From NCBI RefSeq assembly GCF_001463885.1, contig NZ_BBWQ01000024.1, positions 62,001 to 126,000 on the forward strand: a DNA stretch of 64,000 nt. The letters run 5' to 3'. Numbering within the stretch: the stretch's first letter is position 1; each line of letters starts with the position of its first letter. Source of the stretch: Aureimonas altamirensis (lineage in GTDB: Bacteria; Pseudomonadota; Alphaproteobacteria; Rhizobiales; Rhizobiaceae). The notes under the pieces were generated by a model. It worked only from the letters and a program-made list of their open reading frames with translations, was not told where the DNA came from and searched no databases. Made by a program: the position numbers and the translations under genes. This document shows positions 1,795 to 23,353 of the stretch, in pieces.

Positions 1795-1879
1795 GCCCAG
1801 GTGGCGGAATTGGTAGACGCGCACGGTTCAGGTCCGTGTGCCGCGAGGCGTGAAGGTTCGAGTCCTTTCCTGGGCACCA
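1795..1879 (+). tRNA. tRNA-Leu (anticodon CAG)
   Basis: A full cloverleaf can be drawn. The acceptor stem GCCCAGG (1795-1801) pairs with CCTGGGC (1869-1875). The D-arm contains GGAATTGGTAGAC, the anticodon loop TTCAGGT has CAG at 1829-1831, a long class II variable arm follows, and the T-loop is GGTTCGAGTCC. The CCA tail (1877-1879) is encoded. The last 17 bases form the core of a direct repeat that recurs at 7194-7210, so this tRNA is the insertion point of the island described below. The gene itself is intact. Confidence 0.97.
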
Positions 1880-1961
1880 ATTCACCGGATAGTTCCGGGA
1901 AGCCAAAGAGTTCAGCCACATCACTGTCCCGCAATGACCCGAGTTACGCGACCGGGTGATG
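1863..1961 (+). repeat. Direct repeat, left copy (attL-like) of tRNA-Leu island
   Basis: This 99-base segment starts in the tRNA T-arm and is repeated in the same orientation at 7194-7287. The first 17 bases (tRNA 3' end with CCA) are identical. Then come a 5-base gap and about 77 bases with 7 mismatches, counted by eye. Duplication of a tRNA 3' end is the usual mark left by tyrosine-recombinase integration. Extension of the similarity some 80 bases past the tRNA is unusual and suggests the element carried its own flank. Confidence 0.85.
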
Positions 1962-2002
1962 CAGATAGTTCTGCATATGGCTCAACCATGGCCGCATCCT
2001 AG

Positions 2003-2209
2003 ACTGGTGTTTTCTGGGTGCAGCGGGCTGTCTGGGCGAGTCGTCGCGATGCCGTAGGCAAGCGAGAGGAACTCGTTTCGCTAGGCACGAAGGACGCCAA
2101 GCTCGCGCGCGTGAAGTACGCACAGGTGTAGGCCGAGGTCGAAGCGCGATGGGCGAACCTGCAAAATGGTCAACGATCACTGACGGAGCGTGAAGCGCAC
2201 GCGATGGCG
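2003..2209 (+). pseudogene. Remnant of a tyrosine site-specific integrase (N-terminal part)
   Basis: Frame 2 read through one stop gives a protein-like stretch with the elements VGKREELVSLGTKD, then VEARWANL and SLTEREAHAMA. These match the N-terminal (DUF6538-like) region of integrases, where the consensus resembles GK.E...SLGT.D...A......VEARWANLR......LTEREAHALA. An in-frame TAG interrupts it at 2129-2131, another TAG lies at 2000-2002, there is no plausible start, and the catalytic domain is missing. It lies 40 bases after the left tRNA repeat, exactly where an island integrase would sit. The integrase assignment is by motif recall and has not been searched. Confidence 0.7.
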
Positions 2210-2372
2210 CGCTGGAACCGCATCACATCGATTGACTCCGGGCCCGTGCACACGTCGCAGTCGGTGGCGTGTACGCGGGGGCTGATGGTCTGGTTTTTCA
2301 TCCTAGGTCCGAAAATCCATGCTGGTTGATCTGATTGATCCTAACGGTTTTGTTCGCCGTAAAGGAGATACC

Positions 2373-3356
2373 ATGAGCACAGTACTCGTCACCGGTGGCA
2401 CCGGGTTTCTCGGTAGCCACTGCATCCTGCAACTCCTCCGCGACGGCCACGATGTGCGCACAACAGTGCGAGATCTTGGGCGGGAGCAACACCGAAGGTC
2501 TATCCTTGAAACCAACGGCGCCTCGACGGAGATGCCCTTGTCATTCGTGGCGGCCGATCTTCTGACCGAGAATGGCTGGATAGAGGCGGCGTCGGGCTGC
2601 GACGTCGTCCTGCACGTCGCCTCTCCTTTTCCCGCAACCCAGCCGAACAACGCGGACGAGGTCATTATCCCCGCAAGGGACGGCACCCTGCGTGTGCTTC
2701 GTGCGGCCCGCGACGCGGGGGTCAGGCGTGTCGTGCTCACGTCGTCGTTCGCCGCAGTTGGTTACGGACGGCAGCACCCGGGCCGGGCCTACGACGAACG
2801 GGACTGAACCGAGGAAGATGCGCCGAACGCCCCCTACATCCGGTCCAAGGTCATCGCCGAGCGAGTGGCTTGGGATTTCGTTGCGCGCGAAGGCAATGAT
2901 CTAGGCCTAAGCGTCGTCAATCCGACCGGCATATTCGGGCCCACGCTCGGTGCCGACTACTCGGCCTCGATTGGAATGGTAAAGGCGATCCTCGAAGGGC
3001 AGGTGCCCGGTCCACCCGACATGGCTTTCGGTGTCGTGGATGTGCGCGATGTCGCGGACTTGCACATACGGGCCATGTCGAGTCCCAAGGCAGTGGGCGA
3101 GCGGTTCATTGCCGTTGCGGGCCCCGCGCTTTCGCTGAGAGACGTGGCGTGGACCCTCTCTGAAGAACTCGGCGAACGGGCTGACGGCATATCGCCGGCA
3201 CTTCTGAGCGCACCGTCAACAACGCAGGAAGGCACCCAGCGTCCGGACGCCAGCAGCGCAAAGGCGCGTCGTATTCTCGACTGGTCGCCGCGCCCGGCCA
3301 GCGAAGCGATACTCGCCAGTGCGCAAAGCCTCCTGCAACTGGGCCTCATCGAATGA
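2373..3356 (+). pseudogene. NAD-dependent epimerase / dihydroflavonol-reductase-like gene with in-frame TGA
   Basis: The start has an excellent ribosome site (AAAGGAGATACC then ATG). The product begins STVLVTGGTGFLGSH, an extended-SDR nucleotide-binding motif, and runs 144 codons to a TGA at 2805-2807. The same frame then continues without a gap through a YIRSK catalytic motif (2839 onward), NPTGIFGP and the C-terminal domain to 3356. The TGA sits where related proteins usually have Trp (a DW or TDW context before the YxxxK), so a single TGG-to-TGA change explains it. Total length of 327 codons is normal for the family. Probably a recently inactivated gene; a sequencing error or a strain-specific mutation is possible. 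Confidence 0.85.
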
Positions 3357-3486
3357 TCGACCGCTATGAGAAGACGCTTAGAAGGGTTTCCCCAACAGGC
3401 AGGTGGTCGGAAGCGCCGTCGCGAAACGTTGAGGCATACTGATGCGAGGCATTAGGATTTAGCGCCGTCTTGCTCGAAAGCGACGT

Positions 3487-4194
3487 TCAGCCTGGAACGC
3501 TTCTTTCGCCTATCTTACGTCGCAACTTGTCTGAGGCCTTGGAGAGTATCGGGCGTCCATGACCGAACACTGCCTTCTCAAACTGGAGATGGGCGAGCCT
3601 ACGCTGGGAGCGTCGTCCTTCAGCCTCGTCTTCGAATCCAACCGGGTCGGCTAGGCCTATGATGTTCATGAACACGTCGCCACCGATCAAAAGGTGATCG
3701 TCCCGCCAGAGGTAAGCGAGGTGTCCCGCGTCATGACCCGGTGTGTGTATTGCTCGCAAACCGCCGGCGATGTCCAGTACTTCGTCGCTCGTGACCTGCT
3801 GGTCGATTCGGATGGGTCGCGTACGCTCATCGGGATTCCATACCAGCCTGAACATGGTTTTGTGTAACACTCCAGGCGCAGCCGTCATCGGCCGGAAAGG
3901 ACCACCGCTTTCAGCGATCATAGCGTCGGCCGCATGTATGTAGGTCCGGGCGCCGGTCGCAGCGACGATGGCCGCCGCGCTTCCAATATGGTCGGGGTGG
4001 CCATGAGTTAAGACGAGATGACGAAGATCACTTGGCTTGCGGCCAAGCTGGGTCAGGGCACGAAGGACGACGTGCTCCTTGTCAGGGAACCCGGCGTCCA
4101 CAAGCGTCAGTTCGCCCTGATGATCGAGCAGGACCGCGTTGGCATTGCCAAGCGCGAGAAGCCAAGCGCCGTCGGCGATCTTTGTCAGTGCCAT
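3487..4194 (-). CDS. Metallo-beta-lactamase-fold hydrolase
   Basis: A 235-residue protein with the metal-binding signature THGHPDHIG near residue 64, a second metal histidine in HTPGHDAGH, the GGDVF aspartate motif and a C-terminal GHG. This is the full ligand set of the MBL fold (glyoxalase II / lactonase / beta-lactamase-type hydrolases). There is no signal peptide, so it is probably cytoplasmic. Substrate cannot be told: lactonase, thioesterase and general hydrolase are all possible. It lies inside the tRNA-Leu island, convergent with the broken reductase gene. Confidence 0.85.
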   Translation of the reverse strand: MALTKIADGAWLLALGNANAVLLDHQGELTLVDAGFPDKEHVVLRALTQLGRKPSDLRHLVLTHGHPDHIGSAAAIVAATGARTYIHAADAMIAESGGPFRPMTAAPGVLHKTMFRLVWNPDERTRPIRIDQQVTSDEVLDIAGGLRAIHTPGHDAGHLAYLWRDDHLLIGGDVFMNIIGLADPVGFEDEAEGRRSQRRLAHLQFEKAVFGHGRPILSKASDKLRRKIGERSVPG

Positions 4195-4446
4195 CCCAAA
4201 ATTCCAATCGAAGTTGTCTGCCAGATGTCGTTGCCCCTAGTATCGCACTCTGCCTTCATGGCGGCGGCATAGAGTTCGTCAACCTTTACAGGGTTCGCCT
4301 TTGCCATCAGGATCAGCGAGTAGAATGCGACCGTACGGATCCTTCTCGGTCGCCTCGCCCGGGTGGACCTGACGTCGGAAGCGGAGTGTTCCCGGATTTG
4401 ACGGGTAGCGAAGGGTGGCAAGGCAGGCGCTTGTCCATCCATCACA

Positions 4447-5145
4447 TCAGTATGTCTGGAAGGCGCCGAAACCCTTCGCCAGGATAGGCCCGGTCGGCAG
4501 CCCGGTTGGCGATCCACCTTCAGGCTCAAGCGTGATCTCGTAGAGCTGGTCTTCTGCCGGTGGCGGTAGGTTGAAATCGTCCAGCCGCGTCACGCGGGCG
4601 TCCGGCAAGAGACCCATGGATCTGGGGCCCATATCGGCAGAAGGCAGAGTCCACACCTGCATCACGCGATCGTCCGGCACCTCGACGGCCGTGAGAAATC
4701 GAAGACGCGCCGTATCGTCTCCGAAATCTTCCACCATCGCCCGTGGGACGCCCGCATCATCCAGAAGAACAGCAATGACCCGAGGGTCGGCAGAGCCGGC
4801 CTGCCAGCCGATCCCAAGCCCCACGGCCAGCGCCAGCATGGCCGCCGCCGCCGGCAGCACCGTGCGCCGCACCATCGACTTGCCGCTGGCCGCCGACCGA
4901 ACCGGTACCGTGTCGACCCGCTGATCGATCGACGTCAATTCCGCAAGGATGCGTGTCGACAGGCCGCCGGGCATGGTCAACGGCGCCGTTTGCAAATCCA
5001 ACTCGACGAAGCGGTCGCGCGATTGGGCAATGGCGCGCGCAACTCCCTCGTTTGTCTCGGCAAGCCTCTCGATACGCCGCGCCTCTTCCTCATCCAGAAG
5101 TCCAAGGACGTACTCGTCGGCTGTCTCGGGAGAAAACGGGCTCAC
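4447..5145 (-). CDS. RskA-family anti-sigma factor
   Basis: A 232-residue membrane protein from a GTG start that overlaps the sigma gene's TGA as GTGA, implying translational coupling. An earlier ATG at 5187 is also in frame. The N-terminal ~90 residues include DEYVLGLLDEEEARRIE, typical of the RskA cytoplasmic zinc-less anti-sigma segment. One hydrophobic segment (AAAAMLALAVGLGIGW) crosses the membrane. The C-terminal periplasmic domain ends in EGGSPTGLPTGPILAKG, the RskA C-terminal signature. It should hold the adjacent ECF sigma factor inactive until a periplasmic signal is sensed. Confidence 0.88.
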   Translation of the reverse strand: MSPFSPETADEYVLGLLDEEEARRIERLAETNEGVARAIAQSRDRFVELDLQTAPLTMPGGLSTRILAELTSIDQRVDTVPVRSAASGKSMVRRTVLPAAAAMLALAVGLGIGWQAGSADPRVIAVLLDDAGVPRAMVEDFGDDTARLRFLTAVEVPDDRVMQVWTLPSADMGPRSMGLLPDARVTRLDDFNLPPPAEDQLYEITLEPEGGSPTGLPTGPILAKGFGAFQTY

Positions 5146-5756
5146 GACAGGCACTCCCGCAGTTTCAGAAGCCCTCGGCGTATCCATGACTTGGCCGTAC
5201 CCAGCGGAACCTTCAGGACAGCTGCCACCTCTCCGTGGCTGTATCCGGAAAGATGCGCCAGAAGGATACCGGTCCGTGTCGCCGGTTCGACTTGCTCCAG
5301 ACAATGCCGAAGCCGGCTCGATCCGGGCAGCATGCGCCATTCGGTCGGTTCGTCATGAATGGCCCGCGCATCTTGAAGTTCGACGATGTCTTCGGGTGCC
5401 AGTAAACTCATACGCTTTTCGCTGCGCAGGATATTGAGACAACGGTTGCGCAGGATCGCATACACCCAACCACGCGCCGATCCGTGATCGGCCTTGTGCT
5501 GATCCGCCTTCCGCCAGATCTGGATCATCGCGTCCTGCAAGGCTTCTTCGGCAAGTTCGACACGACCGAGAATGCGCTTGGCCACCGCAAAGAGCCGGTC
5601 GCCCTCGAGGGACAGGATCTGCGCGATGCCGTCGCGATCCCCGCCTGCACATGCCGCAATTGCTGCGCCCAAATGTTCGTCGCCAACGGGATCAGCCGAC
5701 GCACCACCGGATGCCGGAGCAAAAGCGAACCCACTGGTGGGCGTCGTCTCGGTCAC
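5142..5756 (-). CDS. ECF (sigma-70 region 2/4) RNA polymerase sigma factor
   Basis: A 204-residue extracytoplasmic-function sigma factor. Region 2 includes AEEALQDAMIQIWRKAD and WVYAILRNRCLNILR. Region 4 has the helix-turn-helix HGEVAAVLKVPLGTAKSWIRRGLLKL near the C-terminus. It overlaps the RskA-type anti-sigma gene downstream, the standard SigK/RskA arrangement, and is transcribed away from the secreted DUF4394-like gene. That gene is the obvious candidate target. The 171-base divergent gap has no motif I can call a cognate promoter with confidence. Confidence 0.93.
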   Translation of the reverse strand: MTETTPTSGFAFAPASGGASADPVGDEHLGAAIAACAGGDRDGIAQILSLEGDRLFAVAKRILGRVELAEEALQDAMIQIWRKADQHKADHGSARGWVYAILRNRCLNILRSEKRMSLLAPEDIVELQDARAIHDEPTEWRMLPGSSRLRHCLEQVEPATRTGILLAHLSGYSHGEVAAVLKVPLGTAKSWIRRGLLKLRECLS

Positions 5757-5927
5757 GCACGCATCCTTCTTATTACCCGTCCAAACGGCACCGACTTACA
5801 GGATGACAACGCACAATCGCAAACGGATGCAGAAAAACATGCGGGCCCTGCATCCAAACGCAGCATGGGAGTGTCTTCAAGGTCGGCATCGTAAATCGCG
5901 ATGTCCAACCATTAGTGGAGAACGCGC

Positions 5928-6716
5928 ATGATCCGCACCACCACCACCCTCATCGCCTCGGCAGCCCTCTTGGCCTTCGGCACGACCGCCTCAGCGGCCC
6001 CGGCAGTCGCACTGGTCGGAGAAAAGACACTCGCCATGTTCGATACCGACACCCGCGCCATCACCGGCACGATGGATGTCTCGGGCGTCGACAGGCTCGT
6101 CGGCATCGACTTCCGCCCGGCCGACAACACGCTTGTCGGCGTGACGGATGCCAACGTTGTTTTCACCATCGATCCGGCAACCGGTGCGGCCAGCGAATTG
6201 TCGACTATGGACACGCCTCTGGACATGGGCGACATGCCGGTCATCGTCGATTTCAATCCGATGGCGGATCGTCTGCGCTACATGACAGGCACGACGAACC
6301 ACAGGGTGAATGTGGACACCGGTGAAGTCACCGTCGACGGTGATCTCAGCTTCGTCGAGGCCGACATGCACGCGGGCGAAGAGCCGGCCATCGTGGCGGC
6401 AGCCTATATCAATAGCCTTGGCAAGCCTGAAAGCACCGCGATGTACAACATCGACGGCACCATCGTCGCGCTCATACAGCAGACCGCTCCCAATGATGGA
6501 ACGCTGGCGTCCATCGGCAAATTGGGAATCGAGAATCCTGCCTCAAACTATGCGTTCGACATCTCGGCCGACGCCGAGTTGAACAACACCGCATGGCTCG
6601 TCAATGGAACGACGTTGTTCACCGTAGATCTTGAGACTGGCGCAGCTACGGCTGTCGGCATGATCGAAGGCGTGGACGGTGAGATCCGCGACATTGCTAT
6701 CGCCCCGCCGATGTAA
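5928..6716 (+). CDS. Secreted DUF4394-like beta-propeller-type protein
   Basis: A 262-residue protein with a clear Sec signal peptide (about residues 1-23, ending ASA-AP). The mature part is made of repeating short beta-rich units such as LVGIDFRPADNTLVGV, FTIDPATGAAS and FTVDLETGAAT, the pattern of DUF4394 proteins. RBS: GTGGAGAACGCGC before the ATG. It is divergent from the ECF sigma/anti-sigma pair, so it is likely their regulated product, acting in the periplasm or outside. Its biochemical role is unknown. Confidence 0.8.
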   Translation: MIRTTTTLIASAALLAFGTTASAAPAVALVGEKTLAMFDTDTRAITGTMDVSGVDRLVGIDFRPADNTLVGVTDANVVFTIDPATGAASELSTMDTPLDMGDMPVIVDFNPMADRLRYMTGTTNHRVNVDTGEVTVDGDLSFVEADMHAGEEPAIVAAAYINSLGKPESTAMYNIDGTIVALIQQTAPNDGTLASIGKLGIENPASNYAFDISADAELNNTAWLVNGTTLFTVDLETGAATAVGMIEGVDGEIRDIAIAPPM

Positions 6717-7193
6717 GCACTGCCGCTTCCAGTCGCATGGCGCCAGCCGTCCCGATGTTCGGTTTGGCTCGTGCTGTGCTCAGATTGCTGCTCCGCGAAC
6801 TCGGCGCCCTTTGCGACGGCGACCGCGTTCCCGGACAGTATATCGGCTTTCCTGACCAGGATTCCTGTCTACAACTCAAGTCGGACTGCGCCGCCGAAGC
6901 TATAGGTTGATGAGCGGCCATACCCAGATGAGGATCGTCAACACCGCAAGGGCGCCCGCGTATAAAGCACCGACCGCGTCGAGTGCAGGGGAAGCTGCCG
7001 GTCCGCTGATCCCAGTAAAAGCCGTTGCCACTGGGATGCGCGAGGCATCCTATGCAGTCGTTCTCTTGAACCACCTCGCCGTCCGTTCGATTATCGCCTC
7101 CTTGCCATTTGCTACAGAACGACGATACAAAACTTAAGCGTCAGCATCTGATAAGCCATTGTATTATCTTGATATTACTACGTCCGGGCTCGT
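6717..7193. other. Gene-free stretch with decayed sequence at the right end of the island
   Basis: No convincing gene. The only recognisable content is the tctA 3'-end scrap at 6882-6960. On the minus strand its frame stays open for some 50 codons upstream (a DASRIPVATAFTG-type stretch) but is preceded by stops and lacks a start. The last ~60 bases before the right repeat are noticeably A+T-rich compared with the rest of the window. Confidence 0.6.
6882..6960 (-). pseudogene. 3'-terminal fragment of a tctA-like gene (dispersed repeat, copy 1)
   Basis: This 79-base stretch matches 39379-39457, the 3' end of the intact tctA, with 7 mismatches by eye. Read on the minus strand it encodes AGALAVLTILIWVWPLINL followed by TAG, where the intact gene has Trp and then LRRRS. 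Upstream of the match the two sequences diverge. It is a relic of a tripartite tricarboxylate transporter gene within the island and cannot make a functional protein. Confidence 0.85.
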
Positions 7194-7287
7194 TCCTTTC
7201 CTGGGCACCACCGGATTGTTCCGGGAAGCCAAAAAGCTCAGCCACATCACGGTCCCGCAATGACCTGGGTTACACGACCGGGTGATG
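7194..7287 (+). repeat. Direct repeat, right copy (attR-like) of tRNA-Leu island
   Basis: Starts with 17 bases identical to the tRNA-Leu 3' end (TCCTTTCCTGGGCACCA) and continues with about 77 bases at roughly 91% identity to the left copy. It ends two bases before the stop codon of the glutamate-receptor-like gene. It has only the tRNA tail, not a tRNA, as expected for the distal attachment site of an integrated element. Confidence 0.85.
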
Positions 7288-7288
7288 G

Positions 7289-8395
7289 CTACTTTTCACC
7301 CAGATACTGAAACACAAGCTGCTTCCACCAGTCGCTTTCGACGGTTTGGATGAGGCTGACGTTCACGGGCTCACGCAGCGCGCTGTTGTTGGGCAGGGCA
7401 ATCGCGTAGTTCTGCTTGACGAAGGTGGTGTCGAGAAGCTGCAGGCTGGATGCGTAGTCTTGCGAGATCAGCCAGTTCAGGAGAGGCCGGTCGTAGACGA
7501 AGGCGTCAATCTGGTTTGCTCGCAACGCCTCCAGGCCAGCTTGGACCGTCGGGTAGTCCCGATGGCGGACTTGCGTCGCATCGAGATAGGCGGCGGTCGA
7601 AGAAGCCTCGACGTTGCCCACTCGGACGGACTTCAGGTCGCCTTCGTTCTGTACCAGCCCCTCAAGCTGGTTGACCGTCAGAACCGAAGTCACCCCGGCC
7701 GTGAAGATCGCAATGCCGAGGATCGAGCCAATCATCCAGACGACGGCGAGAACCTGGCCTGGAACAGAACGCGGACCGAAATTGCCGGTGGTCGCCTGGG
7801 TCGCCGCGTTGGTGGCCCACCACAAGCTCGCGAACATACCCTTGGCGACCCCTCCGCCGAAGTCTTCATTGTCGCGACGTTCGAACAGCCAGATCAACAA
7901 GCCGACAAGCAGCGAGATCCCGATCAGCGCCAGGATGGCCTGCACGAAGCCGAACGAGGTCAGCGCGTTGAGAAGTGGACGCCAGGACGGTTCGCGGCTG
8001 GCAGGGATCGCGATGCCGAGCCCGGTCGCGTAGAAGGGCTGCGTGAAGTCGACGGTCTTCTCGCGTTCGGCCGTAACGGTGATGGCGGCGGTCGCCGCGT
8101 CGAACCTGCCGGAGGCGACGCCCGCAATCTGCTCCTGGACGGTTCCGACTTCCTCAAATCGATATTGCAGCTGAAGCGAGTCTGCGATGCGCTGCCACAA
8201 ATCGACGCTGAGGCCGGTCCAGGTCCCGTCCTGACGCTTGTAGGCGAAGGGTGGCGCAAGCTTGATGCCGATGATGAGTTCGGCAGGTGAACCGCCCGCA
8301 GGGGGTTGCACCGGCCTAGGAGACTGAGCCGCGGCGGTGCCGCTCAGAACGAGAAGAGAGAGCAGGATGCCGACAACCAAGCGAGCCAGACGCAT
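7289..8395 (-). CDS. Ionotropic glutamate-receptor-like ligand-gated channel protein
   Basis: From the chosen ATG the protein has 368 residues. A signal peptide (1-24, ending GTAAAQS) is followed by the first periplasmic-binding lobe (about 38-145), membrane helix M1 (about 151-172), a re-entrant pore segment (about 190-208) starting LWWATNAATQ, helix M2 (about 214-240), and a second binding lobe (about 245-366). This S1-M1-P-M2-S2 order is that of prokaryotic GluR0-type receptors. The pore reads TTGNFGP at 202-208, where potassium-selective relatives have TVGYGD, so ion selectivity is probably different. An ATG 30 bases upstream is an alternative start. If the channel is not functional, the protein could be an amino-acid sensor. 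It ends at the right border of the island. Confidence 0.8.
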   Translation of the reverse strand: MRLARLVVGILLSLLVLSGTAAAQSPRPVQPPAGGSPAELIIGIKLAPPFAYKRQDGTWTGLSVDLWQRIADSLQLQYRFEEVGTVQEQIAGVASGRFDAATAAITVTAEREKTVDFTQPFYATGLGIAIPASREPSWRPLLNALTSFGFVQAILALIGISLLVGLLIWLFERRDNEDFGGGVAKGMFASLWWATNAATQATTGNFGPRSVPGQVLAVVWMIGSILGIAIFTAGVTSVLTVNQLEGLVQNEGDLKSVRVGNVEASSTAAYLDATQVRHRDYPTVQAGLEALRANQIDAFVYDRPLLNWLISQDYASSLQLLDTTFVKQNYAIALPNNSALREPVNVSLIQTVESDWWKQLVFQYLGEK

Positions 8396-8656
8396 GAAAC
8401 CTGCTATCGTCACGGAGAACGTCATGGAGCTTCGTCCCGGCAGGACAACCCAAGGAAAGAAGGGATTGGAGTACTCTGTCCGGTTCCGTACTTTAGATTG
8501 CAAGTAGAAACCTGTCTACGGGATCGGACTCACTGGCGTCTGATTGCCGTTTGCCGATCTTGCTTCCGTTACCACCAGCTTCTCGACCTCATCGCCCGAA
8601 CCACGCCGCGGGACGAAAAAACTCCCCGCGTCCGCAACAACAAAATAAACTACCTC

Positions 8657-8674
8657 CAAAATCTATCAATTTTG
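8657..8674. promoter_or_regulatory. A+T-rich inverted repeat upstream of thioredoxin-fold gene
   Basis: CAAAAT - 6 bases - ATTTTG is a perfect inverted repeat in the most A+T-rich part of the 8396-8711 gap, about 40 bases before the 8712 start. It may be an operator or part of a promoter. No regulator can be assigned. Confidence 0.3.
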
Positions 8675-8711
8675 TAGACTTTAATGCGGTGACGAACTTG
8701 AGGTCATTTCG

Positions 8712-9299
8712 ATGCCGCAGACGCCTTCCAATCCGATCCAACTGGGCTCCAGCCTGCCGGACTTCGTCCTGCCCGGGCCCAATGGCGCAAGCATAACCCC
8801 GGCCGATTTTGCCGGGGCCCCGGCCCTGCTGGTGGCCTTCATTTCCAATCGGTGTCCCTTCGTCGTACTGATCCGCGAAGAGCTCGCAGCCTATGCCCGC
8901 GATTACGCCGGGAAGGGTGTCGCCGTTCTGGCGATCAATTCCAACGATGCGACCCTTTACCCGGAAGAAGCGGCGTCGGAACTGGCACGTGAGGCAAGCG
9001 ACCACGGCTATGCCTTCCCCTATGTGAAGGACGCGACACAGGACGTCGCGCGGGCATTCCGCGCGGCCTGCACGCCGGACCTCTTCCTTTATGATGGCGC
9101 GGGCCGCCTCGCCTACCACGGCCAGTTCGACGACGCGCGTCCGGGCAACGGCAAGCCGGTCACGGGTGCGGATCTGAGGGCGGCAAGCGACGCCATCCTG
9201 GCGGGTCGCCCGCCCGTTGCAGCGCAGCTTCCGTCCATCGGGTGCAACATCAAGTGGCTGCCTGCCGAGGTCCTGCCGGACCAGCGCAAGGCCTCGTGA
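8712..9299 (+). CDS. Thioredoxin-fold (AhpC/TSA-redoxin type) protein
   Basis: A 195-residue cytoplasmic protein of the redoxin family: LPDFVLPGPNG at the N-terminus, a VAFISNRCPFV segment placing a single Cys at the active-site turn (no CxxC), VAINSNDA, TPDLFLYDGAGRLAYHG, and a conserved end PSIGCNIKW with a second Cys. The pattern matches the 'thioredoxin family protein' group with SNxCPxV and SxGCxIKW motifs, thought to act as peroxidase or thiol-disulfide exchange proteins. It stands 44 bases before the flavoprotein gene and may be co-transcribed with it, which would suit a redox pathway. Substrate unknown. Confidence 0.82.
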   Translation: MPQTPSNPIQLGSSLPDFVLPGPNGASITPADFAGAPALLVAFISNRCPFVVLIREELAAYARDYAGKGVAVLAINSNDATLYPEEAASELAREASDHGYAFPYVKDATQDVARAFRAACTPDLFLYDGAGRLAYHGQFDDARPGNGKPVTGADLRAASDAILAGRPPVAAQLPSIGCNIKWLPAEVLPDQRKAS

Positions 9300-9343
9300 T
9301 CGCGGCGCGAGCTTTTCCAACGCATCTTCAGTCAGGAACGCCG

Positions 9344-10972
9344 ATGGCAACGGCCCGCAAGGACAGTTCGCTACCCAATGGCACCGTGCTCGGCTGCGAC
9401 GTCCTGGTTGTCGGCGGGGGGCCGGCCGCAGCCTGGGCGGCTCTGTCCGCGGTCGAGGCGGGCGCCCGCGTCGTGCTGGCCGACAAGGGCTATTTCGGCA
9501 CGAGCGGCGCGACCGCCCCGTCCAATACCGGTACCTGGTACGTGCCCCCGGGCGAAGCCCGCGCAACGGCGGTCGACGCCCGCTGGAAGAAGACGGCGGG
9601 GCTTGCCGACCGCCGCTGGATGATGCGCTGCGTCGATACCTGCTACGATAACCTGTCTCGGTTGGTCGAATGGGGATACCCGTTCCCCAGCGACGACGGC
9701 GGAAACCTGTACGTCGCCAACCTGCGCGGTCCCGATTACATGCGCTTCATGCGCGAGCGCGTATCGAAAGCGGCCGTGCGTATCCTCGATCATCACCCGA
9801 TCCTCGAACTCATCGGCGAGGGCGCGTCCATATCGGGGGCCGCCGGCTTGGCGCGCGCCAACGGGCACGATTTTCGGATCGAGGCGAAGGCCGTGGTGCT
9901 CGCCACCGGCGGATGCGCCTTCTTCGAACGTATCCTTGGCGGAACGGGCCTGACCGGCGATGGCCATCTCTTTGCGCTCGAAGCAGGCGGCGCCCTGTCC
10001 GGAATGGAATTCAGCGGGAAATACACGCTCGCCCCCTACGGATCGTCGGTCAACAAGGGTTTGCCCTTCCGCTGGGCAAGCTTCTACCGCGCGGACGGCA
10101 CCCCTCTCGTCGGGCCGGACGGCGCGCAGTTGACGAATGGAATAGGCGGAGCAGAACGGGCCATCGCCGCGGCCCTGATGGAGGGGCCGGTTTACGCCCG
10201 GCTCGATCTGGCCAACGCTCCCCTGCGCGATGCACTCCGCCGGGGGCAACCCAATTGCTTCGCCCCCTATGACCGGATGCGGCTGGACCCGTTCGAGGAT
10301 CGCTTCCGTATCGAGCTGAAATACGAAGGGACCATCCGCGGCACGGGCGGAATCCGGATCGCCTCTGCCGAATGCGCAGCCGGCGTGGCCGGGCTGTTCG
10401 TCGCCGGCGACGCGGCCAGCCGCGAAAACGTAACCGGTGCGATCTCCGGCGGCGGCGCCATCAACGCGTCCTGGGCGATGGCGAGCGGCTGGTGGGCGGG
10501 CCACGGCGCGGCGTCCTTCGCGGCCAGGCGGCCGGGCATCGACGCCGGGCGGCTGACACCCCTCGGGCGGACGGGGCTGCGCGGCGCAAGCAGTGCCCGG
10601 CCCGTCGACATCGCGGCGGCCGCGTTGCGGGTGCATGCCGAAATTGCGCCGCTTGGCAAAAGCTACATTCGCGACGCCGCAACCTTGCGGCAAAGCCGAA
10701 ATGCCGTCGACGCGGTCTGGCAGGAGCTCCATGACCATCTGGAGGCGACCGGCCGCGAGCGGCTGCGCGCCCGGGAACTGGTCGCGGTGACGGCTGCAAG
10801 CCGCGCTACGCTGACAGCCGCCGCTTTGCGCACGGAAAGCCGGGGCGTTCACCGCCGGGCGGATTTCCCCGGCGAAGTGCCCGGCATGGGACGCCGCATC
10901 ATCGTATCCGGCGTGCAATCCGTCTCGGCGCAGCTCGAAGCGGAGGCAATCGACGCCGGGGTCGCATCATGA
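9344..10972 (+). CDS. FAD-dependent oxidoreductase (APS reductase / fumarate reductase flavoprotein superfamily)
   Basis: A 542-residue flavoprotein. The FAD-binding motif VLVVGGGPAAAWAAL is near residue 17, a GTSGATAPSNTG segment near 47 contacts flavin in this superfamily, ATGGCAF lies mid-protein, and a C-terminal GLFVAGDAASRENVTGAISGGG closes the FAD site. It matches the adenylylsulfate reductase alpha / succinate dehydrogenase flavoprotein group in layout. Its stop overlaps the start of the two-cluster ferredoxin as ATGA, so the two likely form a complex analogous to AprAB. The next genes encode a taurine/sulfonate-type ABC transporter, suggesting action on an imported sulfur or small organic compound. 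An in-frame start at 9242 is inside the previous gene and was not used. Confidence 0.85.
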   Translation: MATARKDSSLPNGTVLGCDVLVVGGGPAAAWAALSAVEAGARVVLADKGYFGTSGATAPSNTGTWYVPPGEARATAVDARWKKTAGLADRRWMMRCVDTCYDNLSRLVEWGYPFPSDDGGNLYVANLRGPDYMRFMRERVSKAAVRILDHHPILELIGEGASISGAAGLARANGHDFRIEAKAVVLATGGCAFFERILGGTGLTGDGHLFALEAGGALSGMEFSGKYTLAPYGSSVNKGLPFRWASFYRADGTPLVGPDGAQLTNGIGGAERAIAAALMEGPVYARLDLANAPLRDALRRGQPNCFAPYDRMRLDPFEDRFRIELKYEGTIRGTGGIRIASAECAAGVAGLFVAGDAASRENVTGAISGGGAINASWAMASGWWAGHGAASFAARRPGIDAGRLTPLGRTGLRGASSARPVDIAAAALRVHAEIAPLGKSYIRDAATLRQSRNAVDAVWQELHDHLEATGRERLRARELVAVTAASRATLTAAALRTESRGVHRRADFPGEVPGMGRRIIVSGVQSVSAQLEAEAIDAGVAS

Positions 10973-11298
10973 TCGAGATCGTTTCCGAGGCACGCTGCAT
11001 CCGCTGCGATATCTGCGAACGGGTCTGCCCTGCCTTCGTCTTCGACCGGGACGAATCCGGACTGCCCTTCATCGCAAGGCAGGATGACTGCCAGACCTGT
11101 TTCCTCTGCGAAATCTATTGCCCCACCGACGCGCTCTACGTGGCCGAGCATGCCCACGGGCCGACCGGCATCAGCGAGGCGGAGGCCGAGGCCGCCGATC
11201 TGTTCGGCAGCTATGCCCGCGCGCTCGGATGGCGGCGTGGCCGCTCCGGCGGCGCTGCGGACGATCCGACACATCGCCTCCGGATGGCGCAGGCATGA
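10969..11298 (+). CDS. 2[4Fe-4S] ferredoxin subunit
   Basis: A 109-residue protein with two classical cluster motifs, CIRCDICERVCP at about residues 10-21 and CQTCFLCEIYCP at about 43-54. A ~50-residue tail lacks cysteines. The ATG overlaps the flavoprotein stop, and it is very probably the electron-transfer beta subunit of that enzyme, as in adenylylsulfate reductase. The exact physiological partner is not visible. Confidence 0.9.
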   Translation: MIEIVSEARCIRCDICERVCPAFVFDRDESGLPFIARQDDCQTCFLCEIYCPTDALYVAEHAHGPTGISEAEAEAADLFGSYARALGWRRGRSGGAADDPTHRLRMAQA

Positions 11299-11317
11299 AG
11301 TTCGAGAGGAGAAGCCC

Positions 11318-12154
11318 ATGGACCGCATAACAGTGAGGGACGTCTGCAAGACGTTTCGCCTCAGGCCGGGCCAGACCGTGACGCTGGATGGCCGCAAGAG
11401 CGATCGGGTCGAGGTTCTGGCCGGCGTCGATCTTTCGATCCGCCGCGGCGAGTTCATAACCCTCGTCGGCCCTTCGGGCAGCGGCAAGTCGGTCCTGCTC
11501 GACGTCATTGCCGGATTGACGGATGCGACGTCCGGCAGCGCCGAGATCGACGGACGCTCGGTGACGAGACCTCACGCCGATACGGCCTACGTCTTCCAGC
11601 AATATGCCCTGTTTCCATGGCGGACGGCCATCGAGAACGTCGAGTACCAGCTCGAGGTCCGGGGCGTGGGAAAGGCGGAGCGGCGCGAGCGGGCTCTCCA
11701 CTTCCTCAACCTCTTCGGTCTGCGGGGCTTCGAGGATCGCTACCCCTCGCAACTGTCGGGCGGGATGCAGCAGCGCGTGGCCATCGCGCGCTCCTTATCG
11801 AGCGACCCCCAGGTCCTGCTGATGGACGAACCCTTCGCCGCGCTGGACGCCCAGACGCGCGATATCCTTCAGATAGAGCTTTTGCGCATATGGGAGACGA
11901 TCCGCACGACGGTCGTCTTCGTCACGCACTCGATCGACGAGGCCATCTTCCTGGCCGACCGCGTCGTGGTCATGACGGCGCGTCCGGCCCGGGTGAAGGA
12001 GATCGTCGAGATAGACCTGCCGCGCCCGCGCGACATCGAATGTCGGAACGGCGCCGCCTTCAACGACTATCGCGGCCATGTGTGGAATGCCCTGCGGGAT
12101 GAAGTCCGCAAGGCCCAGGCCGACTGGTCCCTCGCTTCCGCCTTCGGTCATTGA
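11318..12154 (+). CDS. ABC transporter ATP-binding protein (taurine/sulfonate/nitrate type)
   Basis: A 278-residue ATPase. Walker A is GPSGSGKS near residue 50, the Q-loop is VFQQYALFPW, the signature LSGGMQQRVAIAR, Walker B LLMDEPFAALD, and the H-loop VTHSIDEA. The FPW after the Q-loop and the DEA after the H-loop are typical of the SsuB/TauB/NrtD group. The start is set by GAGAGGAGAAG upstream; the longer open frame overlaps the ferredoxin. It belongs with the permease and binding protein that follow. Confidence 0.93.
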   Translation: MDRITVRDVCKTFRLRPGQTVTLDGRKSDRVEVLAGVDLSIRRGEFITLVGPSGSGKSVLLDVIAGLTDATSGSAEIDGRSVTRPHADTAYVFQQYALFPWRTAIENVEYQLEVRGVGKAERRERALHFLNLFGLRGFEDRYPSQLSGGMQQRVAIARSLSSDPQVLLMDEPFAALDAQTRDILQIELLRIWETIRTTVVFVTHSIDEAIFLADRVVVMTARPARVKEIVEIDLPRPRDIECRNGAAFNDYRGHVWNALRDEVRKAQADWSLASAFGH

Positions 12155-12164
12155 GGAGCCGGTC

Positions 12165-13022
12165 ATGACCTATGCATCATCAGCCAAGGGCGGTGAAACG
12201 CCATTTCCGACGAATAGGCGGCTTCGGTTCAGCGTGGCCAACTCGGCCTTGCGGGCCGCTGCAAGCACGATCGGCTGCGGGCTCCCGGCAATGCTTGCAT
12301 TCGCCCTCCTTTGGGAGATGGCGCCCCGGCTGGGCTGGATCAACGCGCTGTTCTTTCCGCCGCTCAGCCGGGTCCTGGCCAGCCTCGGCGACATGATCGC
12401 CAGTGGCCTCATCGTGCAGCATCTGGGTATCAGCCTGCAACGCGCGGCCATCGGCTTCCTGCTGGCCGTGGCGGTGGCCATCCCGCTCGGGCTGCTTATG
12501 GGCCGTTACACGCTGTTCGAGCGCATGAGCGACTTTCTGGTGCAGACCTTACGCAACACATCGCAGTTCGCCCTGCTGCCCGTCTTCATCCTGGTGCTCG
12601 GCATCGGCGAGGCATCCAAGATCGCCATCACCTTCTATGCCGCCGTGTTCTTCCTGCTGGTCAATACCATCGTCGGGGTCAAGTCGACCGATCCGCTGCT
12701 GCTGAAGGCTGCGCGCTCGATGGGCACGTCGGACTGGGACCTGTTCCGCAAGGTGATCCTGCCGTCGGCGATCCCGTCGATCGTGGCCGGCGCACGACTG
12801 GGCGTGAAATCCTCGCTGTTCTCGGTCATCGCAGCCGAGATGCTGGCAGCGCAATCGGGCATCGGCTTTCTCATCCAGAACTCGTCGCTGATGCTTCAGA
12901 CAGACCGCATGTATGCCGGCATTCTGACGCTCACGATCGCCGGCCTCCTGCTCAATTATGCCCTCGTCGCCTTCGAGCGGCGCGCCACGCGCTGGCAGCC
13001 GCACGGCGACGAAACCGACTGA
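12165..13022 (+). CDS. ABC transporter permease (SsuC/TauC type)
   Basis: A 285-residue inner-membrane protein with about six hydrophobic helices. The cytoplasmic coupling loop (EAA motif) is SMGTSDWDLFRKVILPSAIPSIVAGARLG. Family pattern: GWINALFFPPLSRVL near the start and IAAEMLAAQSGIGFLI near the end. RBS GAGGAGCCGGTC precedes the ATG, 11 bases after the ATPase stop. Partner of the adjacent ATPase and the binding protein at 13062. Confidence 0.92.
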   Translation: MTYASSAKGGETPFPTNRRLRFSVANSALRAAASTIGCGLPAMLAFALLWEMAPRLGWINALFFPPLSRVLASLGDMIASGLIVQHLGISLQRAAIGFLLAVAVAIPLGLLMGRYTLFERMSDFLVQTLRNTSQFALLPVFILVLGIGEASKIAITFYAAVFFLLVNTIVGVKSTDPLLLKAARSMGTSDWDLFRKVILPSAIPSIVAGARLGVKSSLFSVIAAEMLAAQSGIGFLIQNSSLMLQTDRMYAGILTLTIAGLLLNYALVAFERRATRWQPHGDETD

Positions 13023-13061
13023 TCCCTTTTTCAATCCAATCGAAACGGAAGGCCGTTACCC

Positions 13062-14099
13062 ATGCGCACGACCAAACCCCTTCTTACGCGGCGCCTGTTC
13101 TCCGCCACTCTTGCCGCCGCAGTCGCCATCGGCGCCGTTCCGCTGGCCGGGGCGGCGTCTGCCGCCGACGACAAGCCGGACGCCATACGCATCGGCTCCA
13201 CCGCACCGGGGCATTTCAAGTTCATCCTGTTCCGCCACCAGAAGCTTCTCGAGAAGGAATTCGAGGCGGATGGAATCCCGATCGAGCTGACGACGTTCGA
13301 CGGCGGCTCTGCGGCGTCGGTTGCACTGGGGTCCGGCGCCCTCGACGTCACCTATATCGGCAACAACCCTTCGCTGCGGTTGGCGGCGAGCGGCGCCAAC
13401 GTCAAGCTTGTCGGGCTTTCGAGCTGGCTGCCGTCCAACGAGACCCTTGTGCTCACCCGCGCCGACTCCGACATCCGGACGCTTGCCGACCTTAAAGGCA
13501 AGCGCGTCGGTTATCTTGCGGGGACGGTTCGCCACTCGACATTCGCCAAGGCACTGGAAGCACAAGGACTGTCGATCGACGATGTCGAGAGCCTGAACAT
13601 CGGCATCGAGAGCTCCGGACCGGCCCTCGCCCGGGGCGATATCGACGCGATCGTGGAGGGGCAGGGTTCCGCTCAGCGCCTCGTGGAGGCGGGTCAGGCA
13701 CGCATCGTCTTCGATGCGGCCAAGGACGGCCGCCCCGAATGGGCGGTGCCGCATGCCATAAGCGTCAACGGCGATTTCGCCCAGCGTTATCCCGACATCG
13801 TCGAGCGCATCCTGAAGGTCGACATCGCGGCGGCCGAGTGGGTCGAAGCCAATCCGGAAGAAGCCATCTCGATCTTCGTCGAGGAGACCGGCAACAGCGA
13901 AGCCGCTGTCAGGGCGACCTATGCGGATGGTCGTTTCTACCAGAACCCCGAGATCACGCCGGCGGCCGTGGAGGCCCTCAAGGGCGAGGAAGCCTTCATG
14001 GCGAAGGCCGGCCTGCTGCAGGGGTCGATCGACTACGACCGCTGGGTCGACCGATCCTTCTTCGAGGCGGCGACCGCCGAGCGCACCGCCGGCAACTAA
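13062..14099 (+). CDS. ABC transporter substrate-binding protein (aliphatic sulfonate/taurine type)
   Basis: A 345-residue exported protein. The N-terminus MRTTKPLLTRRLFSATLAAA is a long signal peptide with a twin arginine, cleaved near ASAAD. The mature part has the SsuA-type pattern: IRIGSTAPGHFKFILFR, LTTFDGGSAASVALGSGALDVTYIG, a LKGKRVGYLAGTVRHSTF hinge and AWVEANPEEAISIF-type helices near the end. It should deliver a sulfonate-like or related small anion to the 12165 permease. The ligand cannot be specified from sequence. It is followed directly by an MFS exporter. Confidence 0.9.
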   Translation: MRTTKPLLTRRLFSATLAAAVAIGAVPLAGAASAADDKPDAIRIGSTAPGHFKFILFRHQKLLEKEFEADGIPIELTTFDGGSAASVALGSGALDVTYIGNNPSLRLAASGANVKLVGLSSWLPSNETLVLTRADSDIRTLADLKGKRVGYLAGTVRHSTFAKALEAQGLSIDDVESLNIGIESSGPALARGDIDAIVEGQGSAQRLVEAGQARIVFDAAKDGRPEWAVPHAISVNGDFAQRYPDIVERILKVDIAAAEWVEANPEEAISIFVEETGNSEAAVRATYADGRFYQNPEITPAAVEALKGEEAFMAKAGLLQGSIDYDRWVDRSFFEAATAERTAGN

Positions 14100-14102
14100 A
14101 CC

Positions 14103-15533
14103 TTGCCGAGCGCAACGACCAGCGACAGCCGAGCGGAGGAGCGGGCCGGGCGTCCGCGCCTCGTTGCCGGCATCGTCGCCGTCGCCTTCTTCATGCAGAT
14201 GATCGACGGAACGATCATCGCAACCTCCCTGCCCGCCATGGCGGCCGATTTCCGGACCGACGCGATCTCGCTCAATGTCGGTTTTACGGCCTATCTTCTG
14301 GCGATGGCGATCTTCATTGCGCCGTCGGGTTGGCTGGCGGAGCGGTTCGGCGCCCGACGGGTCTTCCTTCTGGCCACGATCCTCTTTACCGCCGCGTCGC
14401 TGGCCTGCGCGGCGGCGGGCTCGCTCACCTCATTCACGCTGGCCCGCGTGGTGCAAGGCGCGGCGGCGGCCCTGATGGCCCCGGTCGGGCGGCAGCTCGT
14501 CCTGCGCGGCACGCAGAAGCACGAGCTCGTCCGCACCATCGCAATCATCACCTGGCCGGCGCTGATCGCCCCAGTCGTGGGTCCCCTCCTTGGCGGGTTC
14601 ATCACCACCCATGTCGGCTGGCGGTGGAACTTTCTGATCAACCTACCCATCGGCATTGCCGGCGCCCTACTGATCCGTCTTTTCATCCCTGCGGATGAAG
14701 CACGGACGGCCCGGCGGTTCGACTGGGCCGGCTTTGCGCTGTCCGCCGGGGCCCTCGCCGCTCTCGTCACCGGCCTGGAACTCTTCTCGCATGAGGGCCG
14801 CGCCGGGCTGGCGCTGTCGCTTGTCGCCGCCGCGACGGCAACCGGCATGCTGGCGATACGGCACATGAACCGAAGCCTGGCGCCGTTGCTGGACCTCAAG
14901 GTATTGCAGGTCCGGACATTCGCTTTCTCGGCCTTGTCCAGCGGCATCCTGACGCGAAGCGCGATCAACGCAACGCCCTTCCTGCTGCCGCTCCTGCTGC
15001 AAATCGGCTTCGGCCTCGACGCAATCGCCACCGGCTCGCTGATCCTGGTCTATTTCCTCGGCAATTTGGCGATGAAGGCGGCGACGACCGGCTTCCTGCG
15101 GCTTCTGGGCTTTCGGACATTGCTGGTCTTCAACGGTGTCCTCGCTTCAGCCCTCGTGGCCTGTCTCGGGCTGATCGGCCCGGACACCGGCAATACGCTC
15201 CTGTGGCCGGTGCTGTTTGCCGCCGGATTGACGCGGTCGATGCAGTTCACTGCGCTGAACACCATTGCCTTCGCCGACATCGAGGCTCGCCAGCGGGGCG
15301 ACGCGGCCACCATATCGGCCATGTCGCAGCAGATTTCCCAACTTCTGTCCATCGCAGGATCGATCGCCGTCATACGGCTGATCCACGCGTTCGACCTTGT
15401 CGGGCCAGACCGGGAAGCGGCCGCGTTCGCCCTTGCCCTCATGGTGATGGGGGCCATCGGCATCGCATCTTCGCTAGCCTTCCTGCGGCTGCCGGCAGAT
15501 GCCGGCCACGAAGTTTCCGGCCGCCGCGCCTGA
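14103..15533 (+). CDS. MFS transporter, DHA2 (14-helix drug:H+ antiporter) family
   Basis: About 476 residues with roughly fourteen hydrophobic helices. The DHA2 motif near the N-terminus is FFMQMIDGTIIATSLPAMAADF, then GWLAERFGARRVF (motif A) and GPLLGGFITTHVGWRWNFLINLPIG (motif C region). No ATG is available before the first helix; the frame opens with TTG three bases after the preceding stop, so the start is uncertain. It probably exports a drug or metabolite. Its place directly after the ABC genes suggests export of a product of that pathway, but this is inference. Confidence 0.85.
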   Translation: MPSATTSDSRAEERAGRPRLVAGIVAVAFFMQMIDGTIIATSLPAMAADFRTDAISLNVGFTAYLLAMAIFIAPSGWLAERFGARRVFLLATILFTAASLACAAAGSLTSFTLARVVQGAAAALMAPVGRQLVLRGTQKHELVRTIAIITWPALIAPVVGPLLGGFITTHVGWRWNFLINLPIGIAGALLIRLFIPADEARTARRFDWAGFALSAGALAALVTGLELFSHEGRAGLALSLVAAATATGMLAIRHMNRSLAPLLDLKVLQVRTFAFSALSSGILTRSAINATPFLLPLLLQIGFGLDAIATGSLILVYFLGNLAMKAATTGFLRLLGFRTLLVFNGVLASALVACLGLIGPDTGNTLLWPVLFAAGLTRSMQFTALNTIAFADIEARQRGDAATISAMSQQISQLLSIAGSIAVIRLIHAFDLVGPDREAAAFALALMVMGAIGIASSLAFLRLPADAGHEVSGRRA

Positions 15534-15715
15534 CAGGCATACAGGCAGATGGAAGGGCTTGTGTCGCCATCGTCACGACGACGGCTTCCTGCTTTCGCTT
15601 ACATCCGGTCGGTTGTCGAAGTCCGGGAAGCCCTGTCGACGACCAAAGCTGTTATGCTAACGTGGGTCGATTCACTCCCAACGACCCTTCCATATCTCAG
15701 GCTCGGACACCCTTG

Positions 15716-16192
15716 ATGAAGCTTGACCGTATCGACATCAAGATCCTGCACGAGTTGCAGAAAAACGGTCGCGTGACCAATGTCGAACTAGCCAAGCTTG
15801 TCAATCTTTCCGCCAGCCCGTGCCTGATGCGCGTGAAGAAGCTGCAGGCGGAAGGCTACATCTCCGGTTATTCCGCGCAGATCAACGTCGCCAAGCTCGG
15901 TGCGACCCTCACGGTGTTCACCGAAGTCACGCTGAAGAACCATCAGCAGATCGACTTCGCGCGCTTCCTTACGGCCGTCGAAAAGGTCGATGAAGTGGTG
16001 GAATGCCACCTCGTTTCCGGCGGGTACGATTACCTGCTCAAGGTCGTGGCAGCGGGGATCAGCGAGTATCAGGCGATCATGGAGCGTCTGTCGGGCCTGG
16101 ACATCGGCATCGACAAATATTTCAGCTTCGTTGTCCTGAAGTCGCCTGTCGTGCGGGCCCACCTGCCGCTGAAATCCCTGTTTCCCTACTGA
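15716..16192 (+). CDS. Lrp/AsnC-family transcriptional regulator
   Basis: A 158-residue regulator. The N-terminal winged helix begins LDRIDIKILHELQKNGRVTNVELA with a recognition segment VNLSASPCLMRVKKLQAEG. A C-terminal RAM ligand-binding domain follows, with VVECHLVSGGYDYLLKVV and FVVLKSPV. Lrp-type regulators sense amino acids, and the surrounding kinase, aminotransferase, amine oxidase and dipeptide-transport genes are plausible targets. The 182-base gap before it and the 181-base gap after it contain no clear operator. Confidence 0.95.
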   Translation: MKLDRIDIKILHELQKNGRVTNVELAKLVNLSASPCLMRVKKLQAEGYISGYSAQINVAKLGATLTVFTEVTLKNHQQIDFARFLTAVEKVDEVVECHLVSGGYDYLLKVVAAGISEYQAIMERLSGLDIGIDKYFSFVVLKSPVVRAHLPLKSLFPY

Positions 16193-16373
16193 CGATCCGC
16201 TGCGCGGACCCCGCCTCCGGCCTTCAGTGCAGGCCATCGTGCCGAAATCCCCCCCATAAACGGAATATCCTGCTCCGGGACCGCAGAATTCGGCAATCCG
16301 TCCGGTGTGTTCAGTCCTACCGTCATCGCATCGCTCCACCCGGCATCCCGCGCCGGCCAAAAGGACAGTGCGC

Positions 16374-17042
16374 ATGAACACCTTCCGCCCGAAGTACATC
16401 ACCTTCGACTGCCATGGCACGCTCATCCATTTCCAGATGGCGGAAGCGGCCGTGGATCTGTACGGCGCCCAGCTCGGCAAGGAGCAGTTGGAGGCGTTCA
16501 TCAGGCACTTTTCGGCCTATCGGCTGGACGAAGTGATGAAGGACTGGCAGCCCTATGCCGACGTCGTCCATAATGCGCTGGAGCGGACCTGCAAGCGCAA
16601 CGGCGTTGCCTTCAAGGCAGAGGATGCACAGAACATCTACGAGCGAATTCCTTCCTGGGGCCCCCATGCCGACGTGCCGGAGGGGCTCGCCAAGGTCGCC
16701 AGGGAGTTCCCGCTTGTCGCGCTGACGAACTCGATGGACGCCCAGATCCACTCCAATGTCGCCAAGCTCGGCGCGCCCTTCCATGCAGTTCTGACGGCCG
16801 AGCAGGCCGGCGCCTACAAGCCGCATTTCCGGGCCTTCGAGTATATGTTCGACACGCTGAACTGCGGCCCCGAGGACATCCTCCACGTTTCGTCGTCGTT
16901 CCGCTACGACCTGATGTCGGCCCACGATCTCGGGATCAGAAACAAGGTCTGGGTGAACCGGGGCCACGAGCCGGCCAACCCCTATTATGGTTACACCGAA
17001 ATCCCCGACATCCGTCACCTTCCGGGCGTCGTCGGCCTTTGA
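16374..17042 (+). CDS. Haloacid-dehalogenase type II-like HAD hydrolase
   Basis: A 222-residue HAD-superfamily protein. Motif I is FDCHGTLI at about residues 9-16, the conserved ALTNSMD (motif II Thr/Ser) lies mid-protein, AGAYKPHF supplies motif III Lys, and HVSSSFRYDLMSAHDLG is the motif IV region. Length and spacing match the (S)-2-haloacid dehalogenase type, but many relatives are phosphatases. The stop overlaps the next gene as TTGA, and the following genes encode a phosphotransferase and a PLP phospho-lyase-like enzyme, so a phosphate-handling role is attractive. Not proven. Confidence 0.85.
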   Translation: MNTFRPKYITFDCHGTLIHFQMAEAAVDLYGAQLGKEQLEAFIRHFSAYRLDEVMKDWQPYADVVHNALERTCKRNGVAFKAEDAQNIYERIPSWGPHADVPEGLAKVAREFPLVALTNSMDAQIHSNVAKLGAPFHAVLTAEQAGAYKPHFRAFEYMFDTLNCGPEDILHVSSSFRYDLMSAHDLGIRNKVWVNRGHEPANPYYGYTEIPDIRHLPGVVGL

Positions 17043-18130: not shown

Positions 18131-18191
18131 AGCCACCCAACGCGGCCGCTTGCGAGCGCCGCATCCCCCTCCTTCGAACGGGACGGTTCCC

Positions 18192-19940: not shown

Positions 19941-21611
<1,671 letters not shown>

Positions 21612-21666
21612 TGCCGCGCCACCGATACCCATACCTTCAACCCGACACTGAAATGGAGACGACGTC

Positions 21667-23334: not shown

Positions 23335-23353
23335 GCCTAAGCCATTCCCCACT

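Follow-up and report, generated by a model that had tools for sequence, protein, structure and literature searches.

The interval 1863–7210 of a 64,000-nucleotide (nt) stretch of Aureimonas altamirensis DNA is very probably the wreck of an integrative element that targeted the 3′ end of a tRNA-Leu(CAG) gene. The whole stretch, hereafter the window, comprises bases 62001–126000 of contig C24 in a genome of 4.19 Mb, and all positions are given within it unless another locus is named. A first-pass annotation had proposed a decayed tRNA-targeted element here, and comparison with same-genus relatives agrees with it: both termini resemble those of elements in two relatives, G012 and G014, and the interior is absent from the relatives' locus. 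The insertion lies in a tRNA 3′ end that is duplicated at the far border, and a tyrosine integrase lies at the tRNA-proximal end, as a remnant of about 86 codons here and at full length in relatives. The case is a clearly resolved example of a well-known kind of element; what is new is the member, not the kind of system.

Attachment cores and the direct repeat

The tRNA gene is kept whole (Table 1), and the recurrence of its 3′ end at 7194–7210, reported in the first-pass annotation, is exact over 17 of 17 nt (1863–1879 against 7194–7210). The direct repeat of about 95 bases described there consists of these 17 nt and of a further 79 nt beyond the tRNA end (1883–1961 against 7209–7287) with 91% identity, a 5-nt indel accounting for the difference in spacing between the two copies. 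When the whole genome was searched with the repeat, the second copy was the sole match that extended beyond the tRNA part, with an E value of 1.7e-29 that is far beyond chance; two other matches covered the tRNA only (query positions 7–71).

The tRNA site in same-genus relatives

For 19 of 20 same-genus relatives, about 20 kb around this tRNA was compared, some 17 kb of it downstream. G002 was excluded because its contig stops 0.5 kb after the tRNA; the G018 stretch ends 2.5 kb beyond the tRNA and was supplemented with a second contig. All 19 tRNA regions align with the left backbone. At a threshold of matches of at least 80 nt with E ≤ 1e-8, window positions 2300–6990 found no match at this locus in any of the 19 stretches; the first-pass annotation had named the same genes and both repeats at this locus throughout the order as the outcome that would speak against insertion.

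Searches that allowed at most one mismatch recovered 25 cores, all of them perfect, and an exact search of later stretches, to which mismatched cores are invisible, added four, giving 29 with the window included. Integrase homology was detected within 3.2 kb after 18 of the 29 cores and not after the other 11; at the 20 tRNA-proximal sites, window included, the split is 12 with and eight without. The search for empty sites suggested in the first-pass annotation also supports insertion: eight of the 19 relatives (G017, G019, G010, G008, G015, G003, G011 and G001) have one core in the stretch and lack integrase homology over the first 3.2 kb. Most of these sites differ from one another in the DNA beyond the core, and a clean two-flank empty site was not seen among them. 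Further core copies are present in seven of the 20 same-genus relatives, lying 12.4 kb from the previous core in G012, 46.6 kb in G014, 13.3 kb in G007, 12.3 and then 8.8 kb in G006, and on other contigs in G009, G018 and G020. Near full-length integrase homology follows two of the three G006 cores, and a 26-codon scrap follows the third. A pattern search of the genome collection with the core and the hairpin described below returned 22 stretches, 21 from Aureimonas and one from Aurantimonas. The tRNA-Leu(CAG) end is an insertion hotspot used by many members of the genus. The literature on Aureimonas genomic islands, judged by title and the beginning of the abstract, yielded no paper on this site.

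A segmental duplication of the tRNA 3′ region without any integrase would explain why the repeat, at about 95 nt, is longer than its 17-nt tRNA part, and why a repeat in G007 is perfect over 74 nt. Such an origin is nevertheless highly improbable, given that 18 of 29 cores are followed by integrase homology and that all 29 cores are perfect, whereas the DNA to their left varies between right ends; the integrases and arm sites of the relatives disfavour it as well. Hardly more credible is an ancestral interval that was lost in the relatives. The DUF4394 gene of the interval suggests that gain and loss are frequent, since it is patchy both in the order sample (39 of 249 genomes, the window's own included; no same-genus relative is among the genomes named in the results for this sample, in which 190 genomes without a match are not named) and in the genus (three of 21 genomes, the window's own and two of the 20 relatives, G007 and G017). 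However, in G007 and G017, the two relatives in which its position was checked, DUF4394 is not near this tRNA, and no relative keeps any of 2300–6990 at the locus, while the element ends recur.

Left and right ends of the element

The left end is 88% identical to G014 over 411 alignment columns (1803–2212), which cover the tRNA, the arm and the start of the integrase. The G014 integrase has 547 amino acids with DUF6538 and Phage_integrase domains, and its frame opens 93 nt from the first core base, or 76 nt past the core end; its true start codon may lie further in. The window copy, correctly described as broken in the first-pass annotation, has a frameshift at about 16 codons and an in-frame stop, and ends at 2212. 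Its match to the DUF6538 profile (35.9 bits, with one TAG) is the sole DUF6538 match in the whole genome, and a full-length DUF6538 integrase follows the same tRNA in relatives. From 2203 to 3365 the window is 82.7% identical, over 1166 columns, to a locus of G004 in which an intact reductase and an HxlR gene are divergently oriented. As G004-type DNA runs from 2203 onward, the integrase break is a junction with a 10-nt overlap (2203–2212). Mobilisation in trans by another DUF6538 integrase was rejected, as the genome holds none; other integrase types were not searched for. A literature search on DUF6538 found no paper.

On the right, the 200 nt that precede the second core are similar to the corresponding termini of the G012 element (75% over 219 nt) and the G014 element (75% over 100 nt), the core being included in both figures. 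The match to other right ends consists of the core and at most about 11 adjoining nt. The G012 and G014 elements carry the DUF6538 type of integrase at their left ends, the G012 protein being 94% identical to the G014 query over the first 455 codons and then diverging. This likeness of the right ends, together with left integrases of the same type, indicates that the window retains both termini of one element type.

The DNA past the second core, 7211–7287, is 91% identical to the first left arm of the window and at most 77% identical to the 12 other arms compared. In a correction to the first-pass annotation, the repeat past the tRNA end is best read as an element arm rather than as displaced host flank. 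It probably belongs to the left end of an older element, with the first element having inserted ahead of it, and on this reading the site is a tandem-insertion hotspot. Of the span 1863–7287 proposed earlier, the left border accordingly stands, and the right border moves to the end of the core at 7210, with 7211–7287 belonging to the next unit. No integrase homology was found in the 3.2 kb after the second window core. The second core of G012 is followed by an integrase scrap that matches at 77% identity over 71 codons and has a further piece, of 41 codons, in a different frame. The G007 element (L093, cores at 3174 and 16425 of the reverse-complemented region) is bounded by the perfect 74-nt repeat; its two copies share 57 nt beyond the tRNA end exactly, after which arm sites are present on the left copy only.

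Table 1. Features of the tRNA-Leu(CAG) site in the window, with positions, strand and basis of assignment
Feature	Position	Strand	Basis
tRNA-Leu(CAG), putative integration target, kept whole	1795..1879	+	ARAGORN; left backbone aligned in 19/19 relatives' tRNA regions
Left attachment core, 17 nt, tRNA 3′ end	1863..1879	+	Repeat comparison; perfect cores in relatives
Left arm, with covarying hairpin (1880–1904) and eroded putative arm-type site pair (~1941–1963, by position), into integrase start	1880..1955	+	
DUF6538 tyrosine integrase 5′ remnant, ~86 of 547 codons; frameshift, in-frame stop, truncated	1956..2212	+	G014 alignment; DUF6538 match
HxlR-type regulator 5′-part remnant, bounds approximate, fused to integrase remnant	2203..2304	-	G004 homology
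NAD-dependent epimerase/reductase (SDR) pseudogene, one in-frame stop (2805–2807)	2319..3356	+	Intact homologue in G004
MBL-fold hydrolase, open frame	3487..4194	-	Under the cut-off of each of 25 NCBIfam models shown
Anti-sigma factor (RskA_C), start approximate	4447..~5160	-	Profile matches
ECF sigma factor	5142..5756	-	Profile matches
DUF4394 protein, divergent from sigma gene	5928..6716	+	Profile match
tctA 3′-end scrap	6882..6960	-	91% over 79 nt to 39379–39457
Element right arm, with degraded putative arm-type site (~7120–7132, by alignment position)	6993..7193	+	Similarity to G012 and G014 element right ends
Right attachment core, 17 nt	7194..7210	+	Repeat comparison
Second left arm, probably of an older element, ending near where the integrase would begin; integrase absent	7211..7287	+	91% to first left arm

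Arm-type sites and the post-core hairpin

Arm-type sites are understood here in the sense of lambda-like integrases. Eight elements of seven relatives carry a repeated word in the left arm just before the integrase start, in the form of two 9-mers that lie 13 nt apart in seven of the eight (identical in six, 8/9 in one) and were not found in G007. The word occurs once in the right arm, 74 nt before the core in seven elements and 72 nt before it in G007. Left and right words match at 11 or 12 of 12 positions in all eight elements, against shuffle means of 8.5–8.8; the best of 100 shuffles also reached 11 in G007, G020 and G009. In a permutation test over nine pairs, the window included, the matched 12-mers summed to 98 against a mean of 84.9, and none of 20,000 permutations was as high; the corresponding counts were 0 for 14-mers and 2 for 10-mers. 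These figures are optimistic because the elements are not independent, G012 and G014 being alike, and G009, G018 and G020 being alike and paired across contigs by assumption. The position of the repeated words suggests that they are the arm sites of the integrases. It is further conceivable, if rather unlikely, that private arm words (e.g., TGTTCAACAG and TGTACAACAG in neighbouring G006 elements) let tandem elements with the same core excise separately and escape confusion by the integrases of their neighbours, which would turn the site into a storage rack with separate addresses for defence and other cargo. The element-specific words are a useful detail and offer a testable set for studying how integrases keep tandem neighbours apart.

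A 25-nt hairpin lies directly after the tRNA core (1880–1904 in the window) and in the same place at 23 of the 29 cores, where it is kept with or without an integrase. The 12 distinct sequences from these 23 sites were the rows of the covariation analysis. Stem positions pair in 93.1% of cells (shuffle mean 83.6) and the covariation score is 0.227 (shuffle mean 0.072), and none of 500 shuffles reached either value. Two pairs with double changes and two further pair types were counted; these numbers are unremarkable, being equalled or exceeded in 82 and 480 of the 500 shuffles, respectively. The count excludes the tRNA sites of G016, G020, G009, G018 and G001, which have other sequence, and the second copy in the window, which is 5 nt short. 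The different post-core sequence at the tRNA of G009, G018 and G020 also appears, by eye, to form a hairpin. An intrinsic terminator was considered for the 25-nt hairpin and is not called, as none of the listed sites has a T-run immediately after it.

Reconstructed history and its main alternative

The ends, the integrase remnant, the architecture of the relatives' sites and the absence of the interior from their locus are taken as established, and the following order of events is reconstructed from them. The element would have inserted by a tyrosine-recombinase crossover in the 3′ end of the tRNA-Leu(CAG) gene, bringing its own copy of the last 17 tRNA nt, so that the tRNA gene would have been restored on the left, the displaced 3′ end coming to lie at the right border. 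The integrase gene of the element, pointing away from the tRNA, would have directly followed a left arm that held two arm-type sites, and the right arm would have held one more. The insertion would have taken place on the tRNA side of an older related element, the left arm of which would still follow the right core. Later, the integrase may have been cut after about 86 codons and joined to the regulator/reductase segment, the reductase may have gained its stop, and the arm sites may have eroded. With its integrase cut and its arm sites eroded, the element would no longer be movable by an integrase of its own. Both its past mobility and the function of the arm sites are suggested by sequence evidence.

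Several observations weigh against this account. Positions 2213–6992 match neither the G012 nor the G014 element interior, so the arrival of the cargo with the element cannot be shown, and a homologue of the reductase, at 82.7% identity, lies at another place in G004. The two ends could also come from two sister elements joined by deletion. The GC content of the interval (57.4–63.1%) is only mildly lower than that of the left backbone (65.2%). The arm words of the window itself match at best at 8 of 12 positions (shuffle mean 8.49, maximum 11), consistent with erosion, and being no better than shuffles they add nothing for the window by themselves.

Such observations leave some room for a composite origin, in which the ends are relics of two tandem sister elements, the accessory genes between them recombined in later, and no single element ever carried this cargo. 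This history is possible but doubtful; it shares the tRNA-targeted relic ends with the preferred explanation, and the probabilities of the two therefore overlap. An interior that has nothing in common with those of the G012 and G014 elements would suit it, as would the HxlR/reductase DNA placed elsewhere in G004, a 506-nt anti-sigma piece beside an apparent broken integrase in G005 and G012, and a tctA scrap that copies a gene 32 kb away in the window. Against it, both ends are of the same element type and stand in the correct order and orientation, and a single element requires fewer events. A single tRNA-targeted element, now decayed, remains the preferred explanation. For the window itself this result is ordinary. 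Its wider interest lies in the stages that it displays in the death of a tRNA-linked element, with the integrase cut, the arm sites eroded and some cargo still open, and in placing the wreck in a genus-wide insertion hotspot, some other occupants of which carry defence-type genes.

Interior genes

The broken reductase, the MBL hydrolase and the tctA scrap listed in the first-pass annotation were all recovered, the reductase as a single frame with one in-frame stop (Table 1). Both genes of the sigma/anti-sigma module named there are likewise present, and its list lacked the adjacent DUF4394 gene. Open frames are retained in this trio and in the MBL-fold gene. The nearest homologue of the latter in the genus is that of G018 (71% amino acid identity, with one TGA); a resistance metallo-beta-lactamase was rejected, the score of 70.9 bits comparing with an NCBIfam cut-off of 240 (subclass B3). 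The tctA scrap resembles a segment that overlaps the 3′ end of the TctA gene at 39355–40860 (minus strand), about 32 kb away. This 79-nt copy adjoins the right arm of the element on its left.

Sigma and anti-sigma homologues adjoin DUF4394 in 20 of 20 loci, the window's own included, among the 20 best of 43 matches, and across the order the ECF sigma/anti-sigma/DUF4394 genes thus recur as a divergent trio. G005 (L158:1501-2600) and G012 (L159, G012:C38) both have a 506-nt piece of the anti-sigma gene that is 93% identical to the window. In both it adjoins what reads as a broken tyrosine integrase, which suggests that parts of the trio may also have been carried by mobile DNA at other loci. A literature search on DUF4394 together with sigma factors found no paper. 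No relaxase or conjugation genes were detected in eight frames of the interval, seven of them scanned with both Pfam and NCBIfam and the eighth with Pfam alone, and assignment to the integrative and conjugative or integrative and mobilizable elements was for this reason not made.

Extent of variable DNA to the right

The right flank assumed in the first-pass annotation, a glutamate-receptor-like gene (7289–8503), did not serve as an anchor: none of the 20 same-genus genomes has a close homologue (the best match, in G014, is 29% identical), and the gene is therefore variable DNA too. The block at 8500–11300 was rejected as right backbone as well, as it is present at the locus in G012 only (92%); G004, G018, G014 and G009 have it at 71–72% on contigs other than that of the tRNA, and the rest have short matches or none. 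Among the longer stretches compared, that of G012 shares 8607–15544 at this locus, and those of G005, G014, G007 and G006 do not. Only from about 59,243 does the window again have DNA in common, in the same orientation, with G012, G014 and G005. The distance from the tRNA to this block is about 57.4 kb in the window, 32.5 kb in G012, 70.5 kb in G014 and 81.1 kb in G005, and with only weak matches or none in other relatives the block is a clade-level anchor. The island is the unit nearest the tRNA within a variable region that spans about 57 kb. Most of 15.5–59 kb has native-like composition (65.2% GC) and is not called an island; no tandem repeats were found in 15500–23500.

Comparison with known systems and cargo of the relatives' elements

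The ssrA islands of Dehalococcoides are described as tandem islands downstream of one RNA gene with 20-bp direct repeats (PMC3146451). As at the present site, with its 17-nt core, those islands lie end to end and are bounded by the RNA 3′ end and short repeats, with integration genes at the RNA-proximal edge and some islands lacking them. They use a serine recombinase, whereas the integrase here is a DUF6538-type tyrosine integrase and the window unit is dead. The asn-tDNA islands of Klebsiella are similar in the tRNA 3′ target, in a 17-bp perfect repeat in one island and in composite islands formed by tandem accretion; excision was measured there, whereas the integrase here is truncated (PMC4891358). 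The KplE1 intS gene is a tRNA-associated integrase gene whose attL overlaps the integrase promoter (PMC2951348). In the elements compared here, the integrase frame opens about 76 nt past the core end, with repeated sites before or at its start, so that attL and promoter should overlap in them as well.

Ten chosen proteins from the G012, G006 and G009 elements were examined with PADLOC and Pfam. With PADLOC, seven of the ten matched some model at E 0.001, several of them weakly, and three matched none. By PADLOC, the G012 element (L086:11693-15017) has an NsnA/NsnB/NsnC set, the G006 element (L105:2528-4306) an RT-Toprim I-C reverse transcriptase, and the G009 element (L107:2757-4888) a kinase that lies beside a protein with weak PP2C-type similarity. 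These predictions suggest that relatives' elements at the same tRNA carry defence-type genes.

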